This document shows positions 3,041 through 36,185 of a DNA stretch of 36,999 bases, piece after piece. Position 1 is the stretch's first letter; every line of letters starts with the position of its first letter. The stretch is from a virus. The notes beneath the pieces were generated by a model, which made no database searches, was not told the origin of the DNA, and saw only the letters and a program-made list of their open reading frames with translations. The stretch lies in IMG/VR virus record IMGVR_UViG_3300031251_000065, positions 1 to 36,999 of that record; one strand, 5' to 3'. The translations under genes and the position numbers were made by a program.

Positions 3041-3095
3041 GTGAAGCCTCGTCTCAAAACAACATTGTTTTTTAATCAAGGCGCTGGTTAACATA

Positions 3096-3120
3096 ATAGC
3101 AAGTCAGGTAGACTTGCTAT
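3096..3120. repeat. Perfect 10-bp inverted repeat upstream of the CII-like gene
   Basis: ATAGCAAGTC (3096-3105) and GACTTGCTAT (3111-3120) are exact inverted copies around a 5-base loop. It lies 56 bases before the CII-like start. There is no T-tract after it on either strand, so it is more likely an operator or RNA regulatory hairpin than a terminator. Confidence 0.6.
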
Positions 3121-3162
3121 TGAGGTCCGTAGAAGGTATGTTACAAAACCAGTGCCTCATCA

Positions 3163-3462: not shown

Positions 3463-3477
3463 AGTCTATTTATTTTG

Positions 3478-3489
3478 CATAAATTTATG
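3478..3489. promoter_or_regulatory. Candidate operator 2, overlapping the CI-like start codon
   Basis: CATAAATTTATG is a perfect 12-bp palindrome whose last three bases are the ATG of the CI-like gene. The spacing from operator 1 is about 29 bases centre to centre, close to three helical turns. Binding here would block transcription of the repressor gene itself. Confidence 0.5.
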
Positions 3490-4209
3490 AAATTATCTGA
3501 TCGAATCGCGCAACTCAAGGCCTCCAGGCCTGTGTCCTACTGGGAGAGGCAGGTAGGTATTGCGCGCGGAAATTTAGATAGAGCGCTTAAAGACGACAAG
3601 TTGAGCGATGAAAATATTCGCAAATTGTGCAAATGGGAAAATGCGCGCGCAGATTGGTTGTTGCTCGGCTCCGGGGCTCCCTATCAAACAGCCACTTTCA
3701 ATACCGATCATGATCTATCCGATCAACTAAACGCCTATCTTATTGATGAAGCGGAAAGCCGGACGTTAACCGTCGTTACCCGGAAATCAGACGATCTACC
3801 GTGTGCGGTGGTGCTGACTATGCCGGGTCAGTATCAAGCCGGCAAAGCTATGGTTGATTACACTATCTTGGATGTATTGGTCGGGCCGATTGGGCTCTAT
3901 AGCCGAGGAACCATCAAGGACGGAAGTTGGCGGAAGCGGCAACAAGTGACGCTGGACGATGAGGTAGTGGAAAGTTTGTGCAAAGGCGGCATCGGGACCT
4001 ATGCGCTAATGCTCGATCCGGGCTATTTAAAAGCCGCTGGGCCGTTGGATGATCAAACCTTGGCCGACGTTGCCGAAGAGTCGGCAGGCTACACAGTGCC
4101 GCTGACACCACCCGAACAGCGATTGCTGACAACCTACCGAGCCTTGCCCAATGATGACCGCCATCGCTTGCTTGCGATTGCCGACACGCTAAAATCGTGC
4201 GCCGGTTAA
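3487..4209 (+). CDS. CI-like phage repressor without peptidase domain
   Basis: A 240-residue protein and the only sizeable plus-strand gene in the left 33 kb. The N-terminus (MKLSDRIAQLKASRPVSYWE) and following helices suit a DNA-binding domain (WLLLGSGAPY near residue 60 is common in phage repressors). The last 35 residues (LTPPEQRLLTTYRALPNDDR) are also typical of prophage repressors. I see no LexA/S24 Ser-Lys protease signature, so SOS self-cleavage is unlikely and induction may depend on an antirepressor. ATG 3487 is preferred over a TTG at 3475. No Shine-Dalgarno is present, and the start lies in a palindrome. It is divergent from the Arc-like gene. Confidence 0.78.
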   Translation: MKLSDRIAQLKASRPVSYWERQVGIARGNLDRALKDDKLSDENIRKLCKWENARADWLLLGSGAPYQTATFNTDHDLSDQLNAYLIDEAESRTLTVVTRKSDDLPCAVVLTMPGQYQAGKAMVDYTILDVLVGPIGLYSRGTIKDGSWRKRQQVTLDDEVVESLCKGGIGTYALMLDPGYLKAAGPLDDQTLADVAEESAGYTVPLTPPEQRLLTTYRALPNDDRHRLLAIADTLKSCAG

Positions 4210-31697: not shown

Positions 31698-32324
31698 TCA
31701 AGCGCCAAACTGAGCGTCCAGCACCTTATGAAGCTTACCCAAATACTCCATCCGACAGACACTGAGAGCAACCATATGCGCGACACGCCGATTATCGATT
31801 AACCGTTCAATACCTTTCTTAACAAAAATGTTTGATGCCTCAACCCCCTTGGCCAGCGCTTGCGGCGACTTGATAGCTTGTCCCTCGTAAAACCCCGACA
31901 GCGCCGGCGTATTGGCCACATACTTCATAATAGCGCCAAACCTTACAACCAAGCAGAGCTGCCCAATACCATCAGCACGGATAAACTCAAGCTGATAAGG
32001 ATGATTAAACCGGCCGTCGTTAATCTCGACTAAAACAGTTTTTAAGATCAACTCCCACGGCTCCAAAGCAACCTCCTTTTGCGCCGTTGTCGCTACCATC
32101 GGCGGTTGAATAACAGGCGGCTCCACTGCCAGCCTATTTCTTGCCGCAATAGAATCCTGATCCCTAAACAAACTAATCATTTCCCGTTGCGGATCCTGTC
32201 TCACAGCTTGCTTCAGAATGTCCTTAACAAACTCGCTCAACGTCACCCCGCGCTCCCTGGCCGAAACCTTTAGCGACTCCTTAAGCCAAGCAGGGACAAC
32301 CATATCTAACCGTTCTTGCTTCAT
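31698..32324 (-). CDS. Ribbon-helix-helix protein with extended C-terminus, 208 aa
   Basis: Residues 1-45 (MKQERLDMVVPAWLKESLKV, then RGVTLSEFVKDILKQAV) form an Arc-type strand-helix-helix domain. A Pro/Val linker follows, then a 125-residue domain of unknown kind (LEFIRADGIGQLCLVVRFGA). GAGG precedes the ATG. It is the last gene of the leftward c4/antirepressor operon. The combination of RHH plus a larger domain could fit a partition-type DNA-binding protein or a transcription factor. No match to a named family is claimed. Confidence 0.65.
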   Translation of the reverse strand: MKQERLDMVVPAWLKESLKVSARERGVTLSEFVKDILKQAVRQDPQREMISLFRDQDSIAARNRLAVEPPVIQPPMVATTAQKEVALEPWELILKTVLVEINDGRFNHPYQLEFIRADGIGQLCLVVRFGAIMKYVANTPALSGFYEGQAIKSPQALAKGVEASNIFVKKGIERLIDNRRVAHMVALSVCRMEYLGKLHKVLDAQFGA

Positions 32325-32667: not shown

Positions 32668-33312
32668 CTAAGCGTCTGAATCAGTAGCGCATGGATAGTA
32701 TTCGTCATGCCCCAGCCTAGGCGTAACAGCGGCGGGCTTGGCGTACATATCCGGCGCATCGGTGCCATGCAGCTCAACCTGCTTAAAGTGCTTACGCATA
32801 AAAGCCAACTCAGGGTAGGGTATGCCTATCGCATCGCACAGCACCGTAATTTCCAGCCAGGTTTGCTTGTGGTCCATCGCGTCTTTAATCTTCGCTATTT
32901 TCGAGGTTAGATTCGTGATCCTGGCCAGGATCGAGCGGTACTCTTTGGGTTCAATATCTTCCGGCCGGATTAAAGCCTTACCGGTATTGGAAAAGTGCCA
33001 AACAAACTCAGCCACTTCTACTTTCTTTTGCTTGGCTTTCGGTTTTCCGGATTCCATGACGACCAGTAAAAAGCCGATGGGGTGGTAAACGTTGGTGTCG
33101 TAGCTTTTACCGTCAGTAGTGGTCAACTTGACCACTACTGAATATGAATCTATGTGAGGGTTTCTTTCTAAAAGCTTAGATATTGCCCTTATTGGGTCTT
33201 CATATTCTAACCATTCGCCTATGCCTTGGCGGGTTACATGTGGAATACCATTGATTAAAACAGTTTGTGTTAAGGCGATGTCGCCATAAGTGAATGAGGA
33301 TAATTGAGACAT
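32668..33312 (-). CDS. Phage antirepressor (P22 AR N-terminal / BRO-N type)
   Basis: A 214-residue antirepressor. The N-terminus has the usual pattern: VLINGIPHVTRQGIGEWLEY, EDPIRAISKLLERNPHI, then PIGFLLVVMESGKPKAKQKK. The C-terminal half is helical (SILARITNLTSKIAKIKDAM) and differs from common KilA/ANT C-termini. ATG 33312 has GGAG eight bases upstream and lies in the same frame as an upstream Ash/Icd-like leader. In P1, Ant inactivates the C1 repressor and its translation is coupled to icd and blocked by c4 RNA. A similar role against the CI-like repressor is inferred, since that repressor lacks a peptidase domain. Confidence 0.85.
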   Translation of the reverse strand: MSQLSSFTYGDIALTQTVLINGIPHVTRQGIGEWLEYEDPIRAISKLLERNPHIDSYSVVVKLTTTDGKSYDTNVYHPIGFLLVVMESGKPKAKQKKVEVAEFVWHFSNTGKALIRPEDIEPKEYRSILARITNLTSKIAKIKDAMDHKQTWLEITVLCDAIGIPYPELAFMRKHFKQVELHGTDAPDMYAKPAAVTPRLGHDEYYPCATDSDA

Positions 33313-33462
33313 GACTGTACTCCGTAGCGATTTTAAAACCGGCACAAAGACGCCAATCTTTGGGAGCCGGACTGGGCGGGGTTGGCGTACCGGGCTACGA
33401 CCGGCCAGCCTTTTTAGGGGCTGCCCCGCCCAGCCCGACATAATAGGCTGAACGTCGCGCAT
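33313..33462 (-). CDS. Ash/Icd-like leader reading frame, fused in frame to the antirepressor
   Basis: The frame runs from an ATG at 33462, right after a terminator U-tract, with no stop before the antirepressor ATG at 33312. It contains IMSGWAGQPLKRLAG and the later KIGVFVPVLKS, the pattern of the phage Ash family (P4 ash / P1 icd neighbourhood). In P1 the icd frame is the site where c4 RNA acts. Translation of this leader may be needed to open the antirepressor ribosome site. No clear Shine-Dalgarno precedes 33462, so the exact start is uncertain, and a 264-residue readthrough product is possible. Confidence 0.62.
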
Positions 33463-33482
33463 AAAAAAACCGCATAGAGCGG
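33463..33482 (-). terminator. c4 RNA terminator
   Basis: CCGC-TCTAT-GCGG followed by seven U on the minus strand. Termination here would yield the free c4 RNA. Readthrough would give the mRNA of the Ash leader and antirepressor. The ATG of the leader frame is directly after the U-tract. Confidence 0.85.
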
Positions 33483-33536
33483 CTTGCGCCGTAGCTATCC
33501 GAGTACGCCAATACCCGAGCTGCCAATGTGGGCAGC
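33463..33536 (-). ncRNA. c4: c4-type antisense RNA
   Basis: From the predicted transcription start (about 33536) to the terminator U-tract (33463) is about 74 bases, near the size of P1 c4 RNA. It begins with a hairpin (CCCG/CGGG outer, TGCC-CACATT-GGCA inner). It then carries TTGGCGTAC and GCTACG, complementary to GTACGCCAA (33390-33382) and CGTAGC (33399-33394) in the downstream Ash leader. It ends with the terminator CCGC-TCTAT-GCGG-TTTTTTT. In P1 such an RNA pairs with the icd leader to silence the antirepressor. Confidence 0.82.
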
Positions 33537-33542
33537 GGGATA

Positions 33543-33572
33543 AGAATAGGCTTGATTAGGTCTTGGTGTCAA
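33543..33572 (-). promoter_or_regulatory. Sigma-70 promoter of the c4/antirepressor operon
   Basis: Consensus -35 TTGACA (33572-33567) and -10 TATTCT (33548-33543) with an 18-base spacer, read on the minus strand. It predicts transcription from about 33536, exactly ahead of the c4 RNA. It is divergent from the promoter of the zinc-ribbon gene. Confidence 0.8.
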
Positions 33573-35578: not shown

Positions 35579-35875
35579 ATGCAAACCGTTATCGAAACCC
35601 CAACTTTTCAAAAACAGGCCGAAAAAATCTGGTCAGACGATGAGCGCATGGCATTTATCAGTTGGATTGCCGAACATCCCACAGCAGGCGATGTGATTCC
35701 CGGCGCTGACGGTGCGCGCAAAGTTCGCTGGTCGATAGCGGGCAAAGGCAAGCGCGGCGGTGTCCGCGTCATTTATTTTAATCTGACTGAGCAAGGCGCA
35801 TTGGTGCTGGTCATGCTGTATCAAAAGGCGGACCAGGCCAACATCCAAGCCAGTGACATTAACAAGGCGGTGTGA
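35579..35875 (+). CDS. RelE/HigB-type toxin
   Basis: A 98-residue toxin of the RelE/HigB (phage Gp49-like) type. It begins QTVIETPTFQKQAEKIWSDD, and the core KVRWSIAGKGKRGGVRVIYF has the basic residues that contact mRNA or ribosome in the family. The C-terminus LVMLYQKADQANIQASD includes the 'yaK..' helix seen in HigB proteins. It would cut mRNA on ribosomes when free of antitoxin. It is the first gene of the pair, as in higBA order. No Shine-Dalgarno is visible. Confidence 0.88.
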   Translation: MQTVIETPTFQKQAEKIWSDDERMAFISWIAEHPTAGDVIPGADGARKVRWSIAGKGKRGGVRVIYFNLTEQGALVLVMLYQKADQANIQASDINKAV

Positions 35876-35876
35876 C

Positions 35877-36185
35877 ATGGATATTGAAAAAATAGCGCAA
35901 GCGATTGAGGCCGACGCCGGCATGGCGCTGGACGATCTCCGGCAGGGTTTGGCTGAAATGCAGGCAGGCAGTGGCCGGGTGACTACGGCTGAGCAGCTTT
36001 TAGTGCGCATGGTCCGCACTAAAACCGGCTTATCGCAGCAAGCGTTTGCCGAACGCATCAAAACACCAGTCGCCACGCTACGCGACTGGGAGCAAGGCCG
36101 ATTTACCCCGCCCGGTGGAGTGCTGTGCCTATTAAAGCTCATCGGCAACCACCCGGATTTGATCGGCGAGTTGGATGCCGCATAG
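35877..36185 (+). CDS. HigA-type XRE antitoxin
   Basis: A 102-residue HTH protein that neutralises the upstream toxin. Residues about 42-75 (VRMVRTKTGLSQQAFAERIK then TPVATLRDWEQGRFTP) form an XRE/HigA helix-turn-helix. The ATG at 35877 lies one base after the toxin stop (TGACATG), favouring coupling. The frame also opens at 35853, but this start fits better. It probably represses the operon through the 19-bp palindrome ahead of the toxin. Confidence 0.88.
   Translation: MDIEKIAQAIEADAGMALDDLRQGLAEMQAGSGRVTTAEQLLVRMVRTKTGLSQQAFAERIKTPVATLRDWEQGRFTPPGGVLCLLKLIGNHPDLIGELDAA

Follow-up and report, generated by a model that had tools for sequence, protein, structure and literature searches.

A predicted C4-type antisense RNA switch upstream of a Bro-N-like antirepressor gene in a prophage-like contig, and its relation to the sRNA-Xcc1 family

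In phage P1, the C4 antisense RNA is cut out by RNase P; its b' block covers a ribosome site, and its a' block gives specificity (PMC5320573). In the Salmonella phage Gifsy-1, supplying the short RNA IsrK in trans was reported to raise the translation of the antirepressor encoded downstream by about 140-fold, with transcription changing 8-fold (PMC4825925). Control in Gifsy-1 is described there as pairing between IsrK and orf45, and the portion of the text that was searched makes no mention of a C4 RNA (PMC4825925). A further small RNA, sRNA-Xcc1, was described as a Xanthomonas RNA whose targets are unknown (PMC2996969), and among the integron cassettes of Xanthomonas, symE–sRNA-Xcc1 is reported to be the most widespread, its regulatory mechanism being left open (PMC12444791).

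Here, we analyzed a window comprising all 36,999 bases of virus record IMGVR_UViG_3300031251_000065, a prophage-like contig, and found what is very probably an antisense RNA switch of the C4 type, linked in cis to a Bro-N antirepressor gene that it silences. Only one Rfam family scored above its cut-off anywhere in the window, namely the C4 antisense RNA (RF01695), which matched positions 33445–33360 on the minus strand at 62.4 bits (gathering score, 45; E = 6.2e-10 for the whole window). A first-pass annotation, made from the letters of the sequence, had proposed a P1-type c4/antirepressor module and a search with the Rfam C4 model as its check; that search was positive, and the order of elements, which is that of P1, likewise supports the proposal. 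As further expected of RF01695, an antirepressor gene lies downstream on the same strand, and blocks a' and b' pair colinearly (7 bp + 6 bp) with a2 and b2, the latter at the ribosome site. The same RNA reached 19.5 bits with the sRNA-Xcc1 model (RF02221), under the cut-off of 53, and so falls outside that family. By analogy with P1, mature C4 is expected to span about 33439–33363. When the annotated P1 immunity region was passed through the same searches, the C4 model located c4 where that gene has been mapped (68.8 bits), the upstream target copy matched c4-a1b1 (RF03163; 51 bits), and the a1/b1 copy with its terminator gave a sub-threshold isrK match (35.1 bits).

All elements of the module lie on the minus strand, in a single predicted transcription unit that runs from about 33572 to 32668 and holds, in order, a promoter, the a1/b1 segment with a terminator, C4, a2/b2, and the antirepressor gene. 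The consensus promoter noted in the first-pass annotation is there (sigma-70-like, TTGACA-18-TATTCT, 33572–33543; 10/12 matches; predicted start near 33536), though taken alone it is no better than chance, with 1.9 such sites expected in the region; judged by eye, a TTGAC-type -35 element occupies the equivalent position in many C4 and sRNA-Xcc1 loci. Also confirmed were the two complementary blocks, a1 (TTGGCGTAC, 33511–33503) and b1 (GCTACG, 33495–33490), and, directly after b1, an intrinsic-terminator-like hairpin followed by a T run (33485–33467). Block a1 is complementary to a' (GTACGCCAA, 33390–33382), which forms an unpaired linker of C4, and b1 is complementary to b' (CGTAGC, 33399–33394), the loop of the second C4 hairpin. 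Absent from the earlier description were the functional target candidates downstream of C4, a2 (TTGGCGT, 33356–33350) and b2 (GCTACG, 33328–33323). The latter overlaps the first G of the Shine-Dalgarno sequence GGAG (33323–33320), which serves the antirepressor ATG at 33312, 47 nt after C4.

The 74-base a1/b1 segment ending at the terminator gave an isrK (RF01394) match whose coordinates were exactly 33536–33463, at 31.0 bits against a gathering score of 50 (E = 5.3e-5 in 451 bases); no c4-a1b1 (RF03163) match was found up to an E value of 10. The homologous segment of locus L038, which encodes the closest relative of the window antirepressor (62% identity), passes the isrK cut-off at 50.8 bits, which favours the name IsrK-like for the window segment.

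These elements suggest the following course of events. Transcription of all the elements is predicted to start from the one promoter, and most transcripts would stop at the terminator near 33467, which would leave a1 and b1 on a short IsrK-like RNA. Transcripts that read through would comprise C4 and the antirepressor message, from which C4 is presumably excised by RNase P, as in P1. The a' and b' blocks of C4 would then pair with a2 and b2 just upstream of the antirepressor start and, as b2 overlaps the Shine-Dalgarno sequence, such pairing would itself prevent translation, with no need for Icd as the relay used in P1. By analogy with Gifsy-1, the 74-base RNA is predicted to be a decoy or antagonist of C4 and most likely sequesters it through pairing with the same loops, so that the balance between short RNA and C4 would set the timing of antirepressor synthesis and prophage induction.

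To assess the pairing quantitatively, we counted the base pairs that the a'/b' part of each RNA can form with the 75 bases downstream of that RNA, requiring two blocks that are colinear and perfectly complementary; the downstream bases of all other loci served as the control. The C4 set comprised 33 loci, 30 of them from 369 genomes of one class, together with P1, the window, and L038. Downstream pairing averaged 14.4 bp in cognate and 5.9 bp in non-cognate combinations, and none of 20,000 permutations reached the observed mean; at least 12 bp were paired in 88% of cognate C4 pairs, compared with 6.4% of non-cognate ones. Upstream pairing was likewise specific (14.6 bp cognate vs. 7.5 bp non-cognate; 0/20,000 permutations). 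Kinship among the loci would improve the non-cognate pairs and therefore works against this contrast. The window C4 forms 13 colinear bp with its own downstream leader, a value attained or exceeded by 2.0% of non-cognate RNA–leader pairs, and 15 bp with its own upstream segment. Moreover, the blocks covary: the b' block of L038 is CGGTTTA where the window has CGTAGC, its b1 and b2 both read TAAACCG, and its a' and a1 also differ from those of the window in a compensatory manner, while C4 around the changed b block is largely conserved between the two loci. An earlier score, which allowed G-U pairs and any block order, ranked individual loci weakly, and perfect colinear pairs were used in its place. 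Plain duplex energies separated cognate from non-cognate C4 pairs on average only (-26.4 vs. -19.2 kcal/mol; for the window duplex, -24.7 kcal/mol, the non-cognate mean being -21.4 kcal/mol). Cofolding of C4 with the leader returned no favourable interaction, with a program that cannot represent loop–loop (pseudoknotted) pairing.

The roles of the two RNA elements could also be assigned the other way round. The first-pass annotation had taken the 74-base RNA at 33536–33463 as the antisense repressor (c4) and the stretch at 33445–33360, which it called an Ash leader, as its target. Both blocks are truly complementary, and the 74-base element ends in a terminator-like hairpin, which would allow it to exist as a free small RNA. 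However, the stretch matched by the C4 model is the other one, the mapped c4 of P1 is the second element, with the upstream element annotated as target a1/b1, and b2, where the antirepressor Shine-Dalgarno sequence is located, comes after C4; in addition, the equivalent short RNA of Gifsy-1 activates rather than represses (PMC4825925). Since the window shares the P1 order, the supposed c4 corresponds to the P1 a1/b1 segment and the supposed Ash leader to C4. On the Rfam match and the P1 control, we rejected a c4 at 33536–33463, and we regard the reversed roles as extremely improbable: the element of about 74 bases with its hairpin exists, under an IsrK-like instead of a c4 label, and the module itself is real, its regulator and a1/b1 segment having been exchanged. 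With C4 at 33445–33360, a1/b1 might still serve mainly as an attenuator, mature C4 binding nascent a1/b1 to promote termination near 33467, with translation control secondary. The terminator directly follows b1, and the CI RNA of phage P4 is described as working this way via seqA/seqC (cited in PMC4825925), but the terminator hairpin and a1/b1 share no bases in the predicted fold, and the position of b2 on the Shine-Dalgarno sequence points to translation control, as does the 8-fold transcriptional as opposed to about 140-fold translational effect of Gifsy-1 IsrK in trans (PMC4825925). An attenuator as the main role is thus unlikely, and we retain a1/b1 as the putative decoy of a C4 that acts on translation.

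A further reading concerns the open frame that crosses C4, which could encode a real orf45-like leader peptide, either fused to the antirepressor or translationally coupled with it. In Gifsy-1, the start codon of orf45 matters for anrP expression, and orf45 is apparently fused to anrP in S. dysenteriae (PMC4825925). In the window, the frame runs without a stop from 33462 across C4 and on to the end of the antirepressor gene at 32668 on the minus strand (264 aa), and an ATG stands at a conserved C4 position in 28 of the 33 C4 loci. Against this, the C4 reading frame is in phase with the downstream start in just 10/31 C4 loci and 11/28 sRNA-Xcc1 loci, about one third, which is the chance expectation; the frame from the C4 start is fully open into the next gene in six C4 and three sRNA-Xcc1 loci, and openness across the RNA is alike in all three C4 frames (25, 23, and 20). 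No Pfam match to Phage ASH (PF10554) was found in the leader frame up to an E value of 0.1, and protein conservation begins at 33312. The longer frame is therefore probably due to chance, and a leader peptide appears doubtful. Of the Ash-like frame said to run into the antirepressor, the open frame at 33462–32668 stands and the Ash identity does not; the Ash-Icd part of the proposed module falls away, there being no separate icd gene and no ASH match in the leader. A longer Ash/antirepressor fusion product, also suggested earlier, was rejected on the chance-level in-phase share and the onset of conservation at the ATG; it is not supported, and the sequences compared give no sign of selection for fusion. 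The C4-type switch acting on a separately started antirepressor gene remains our preferred interpretation.

The gene itself (33312–32668, minus strand) encodes a Bro-N antirepressor-like protein of 214 aa, with which the proteins of relatives align from the ATG at 33312 onward. It matches the PHROG "anti-repressor Ant" (E = 2.8e-6); the Pfam Bro-N match is weak (E = 0.0036; 18.3 bits) and, being below the curated cut-off of 25.6, does not place the protein in that family. An AlphaFold2 model built from a five-sequence alignment (mean pLDDT, 72.7) gave fold matches among viral Bro-N proteins (E = 9e-7 for the best hit and near 1e-4 for several that are named Bro-N), and a Foldseek search of the model against solved structures gave no match at an E value of 0.001. 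Fold and phage-family similarity together place the protein among the Bro-N antirepressors, in agreement with the first-pass annotation, and judging by sequence and model it likely acts as an antirepressor. In L038, a single C4 module is followed by two tandem antirepressor-like frames (1536–2482), of which the first is truncated and the second is the 62%-identical relative. In the window, a minus-strand gene at 31698–32324 combines an RHH_5/CopG-like N terminus with a C-terminal stretch that matches part of a DNA primase PHROG (phrog_5629; 3.6e-16).

The repressor gene at 3475–4209 had been described as lacking an S24 peptidase, and indeed its product has no Pfam match up to an E value of 0.1, hence none to S24; a PHROG "transcriptional repressor" match is weak (E = 0.008). 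The absence of S24 is compatible with antirepressor-type induction; that the antirepressor controls this particular repressor, as proposed in the first-pass annotation, is a guess. The possibility that the repressor region shares an operator with the promoter of the antirepressor was considered and rejected, as the two have nothing in common beyond an 8-base word. Just 5' of the CII-like (CP76) gene, the window contains a perfect 11-base inverted repeat (3095–3121; AATAGCAAGTC...GACTTGCTATT), possibly a terminator or an operator. At its other end, a RelE-like toxin gene (PF06296, just under cut-off) overlaps an MqsA/HTH antitoxin gene (35579–36185, plus strand), and the two probably form a toxin–antitoxin pair.

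Other relatives of the antirepressor, with 43–46% identity to the window protein, were found at L003 and L005 (Nitrosovibrio) and L004 (a viral contig). Where the window has C4, these loci carry sRNA-Xcc1 (RF02221; 61–65 bits) at 2892–2977 in L003 and L005 and at 2861–2953 in L004, each with its own a1/b1 and a2/b2; in the Rfam output, RF02221 is listed without a clan. From the 369 genomes and the relatives, we assembled a set of 31 sRNA-Xcc1 loci, with the founding X. campestris locus outside it. Most of them show, in order, a promoter-like site, a1, b1, a hairpin with a T run, the RNA, a2, and b2 at the Shine-Dalgarno sequence, and the start codon typically lies 30–65 nt downstream. Cognate pairing again exceeded non-cognate pairing, both downstream (10.7 vs. 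5.7 bp) and upstream (12.7 vs. 7.5 bp), and the same held for the 22 high-confidence loci (11.6 vs. 6.0 bp downstream; 13.5 vs. 8.3 bp upstream), with 0/20,000 permutations reaching the observed value in each of these four comparisons. In about a third of the sRNA-Xcc1 loci no good downstream pair is present, and many of these loci are matches with low scores. From these sequence patterns, the sRNA-Xcc1 family appears to be built like C4 and probably works like it.

SymR is a known antisense antitoxin of symE, and SymE genes recurred behind the RNAs studied here. Among 26 genes tested after sRNA-Xcc1 RNAs, four encode the SymE toxin, one a KilA-N protein, and one a Bro-N-like protein; genes after C4 RNAs include Bro-N, AntA, and Rha, plus one SymE. 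Each of the four sRNA-Xcc1 copies of genome G144 stands directly before a SymE gene, and in genome G080 a SymE gene lies directly behind two of three sRNA-Xcc1 copies and behind one C4 (loci L009, L011, L034, L035, L070, L081, and L082 in all). For three of the four G144 RNAs, pairing is longest with the RNA's own target (13, 15, and 16 bp, compared with 0–11 bp for the others), and in the remaining one, L082, b2 is degenerate; in L081, for example, b' is TCCTGTAGC and b2 is GCTACAGGA. A sub-threshold SymR match (43–49 bits) was detected at three of six SymE genes of G144 and G080 that have neither sRNA-Xcc1 nor C4 (L085, L089, and L090), and at none of the seven SymE loci checked that have one of these RNAs. 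This distribution suggests that sRNA-Xcc1/C4 and SymR replace each other as SymE silencers. Upstream of the promoter, L009 and L034 carry an attC-core-like GTTAGGC, which suggests that these two SymE modules are gene cassettes.

Together, these results make it likely that sRNA-Xcc1, seen as trans-acting since 2010, is a second structural class of C4-type switch, a self-contained module whose silenced genes, each lying immediately behind it, include phage antirepressors and integron-cassette SymE toxins; with the latter, it apparently replaces SymR. If so, its target would be the next gene on the same transcript, with no need for a genome-wide hunt; a mechanism would be supplied for the symE–sRNA-Xcc1 cassette of Xanthomonas (PMC12444791), and caution would be in order for genome-wide or plant-target predictions made for Xylella sRNA-Xcc1 members (PMC12189769). 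The wider value of the analysis lies in this link, and it is this reinterpretation that would surprise a specialist. Among the papers searched, with subscription work outside the scope, we found none that links sRNA-Xcc1 to C4-type control, and priority is not established.

Compared with the window C4, sRNA-Xcc1 occupies the same place before homologous antirepressors and has the same topology, but its first hairpin is remodelled and contains a conserved AUACAA...GGGAAUA internal loop. Like C4, the CI RNA of phage P4 is an antisense RNA released by processing, with complementary segments on either side of it (seqA/seqC); it differs in terminating transcription of replication genes (cited in PMC4825925). 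With isrK–orf45–anrP of Gifsy-1, the window shares a short terminated RNA, an open frame in the C4 region, and an antirepressor on one read-through transcript, as well as the joining of leader frame and antirepressor reported for S. dysenteriae (PMC4825925), whereas its isrK match is below the cut-off (31 vs. 50 bits). In layout, the window resembles the immI region of P1/P7, where promoter, a1/b1, terminator-like hairpin, C4, a2/b2, and ribosome site follow in the same order, and the C4 fold and the two-block complementarity are common to the window and P1. Unlike P1, the window has no icd gene, for which the 47 nt between C4 and the ATG leave no room; its b2 sits on the antirepressor's own Shine-Dalgarno sequence, its a and b sequences are distinct, and its antirepressor is of the Bro-N type. 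With these differences, the module is a P1 type of RNA immunity switch, and the window adds one more phage that carries this known arrangement.
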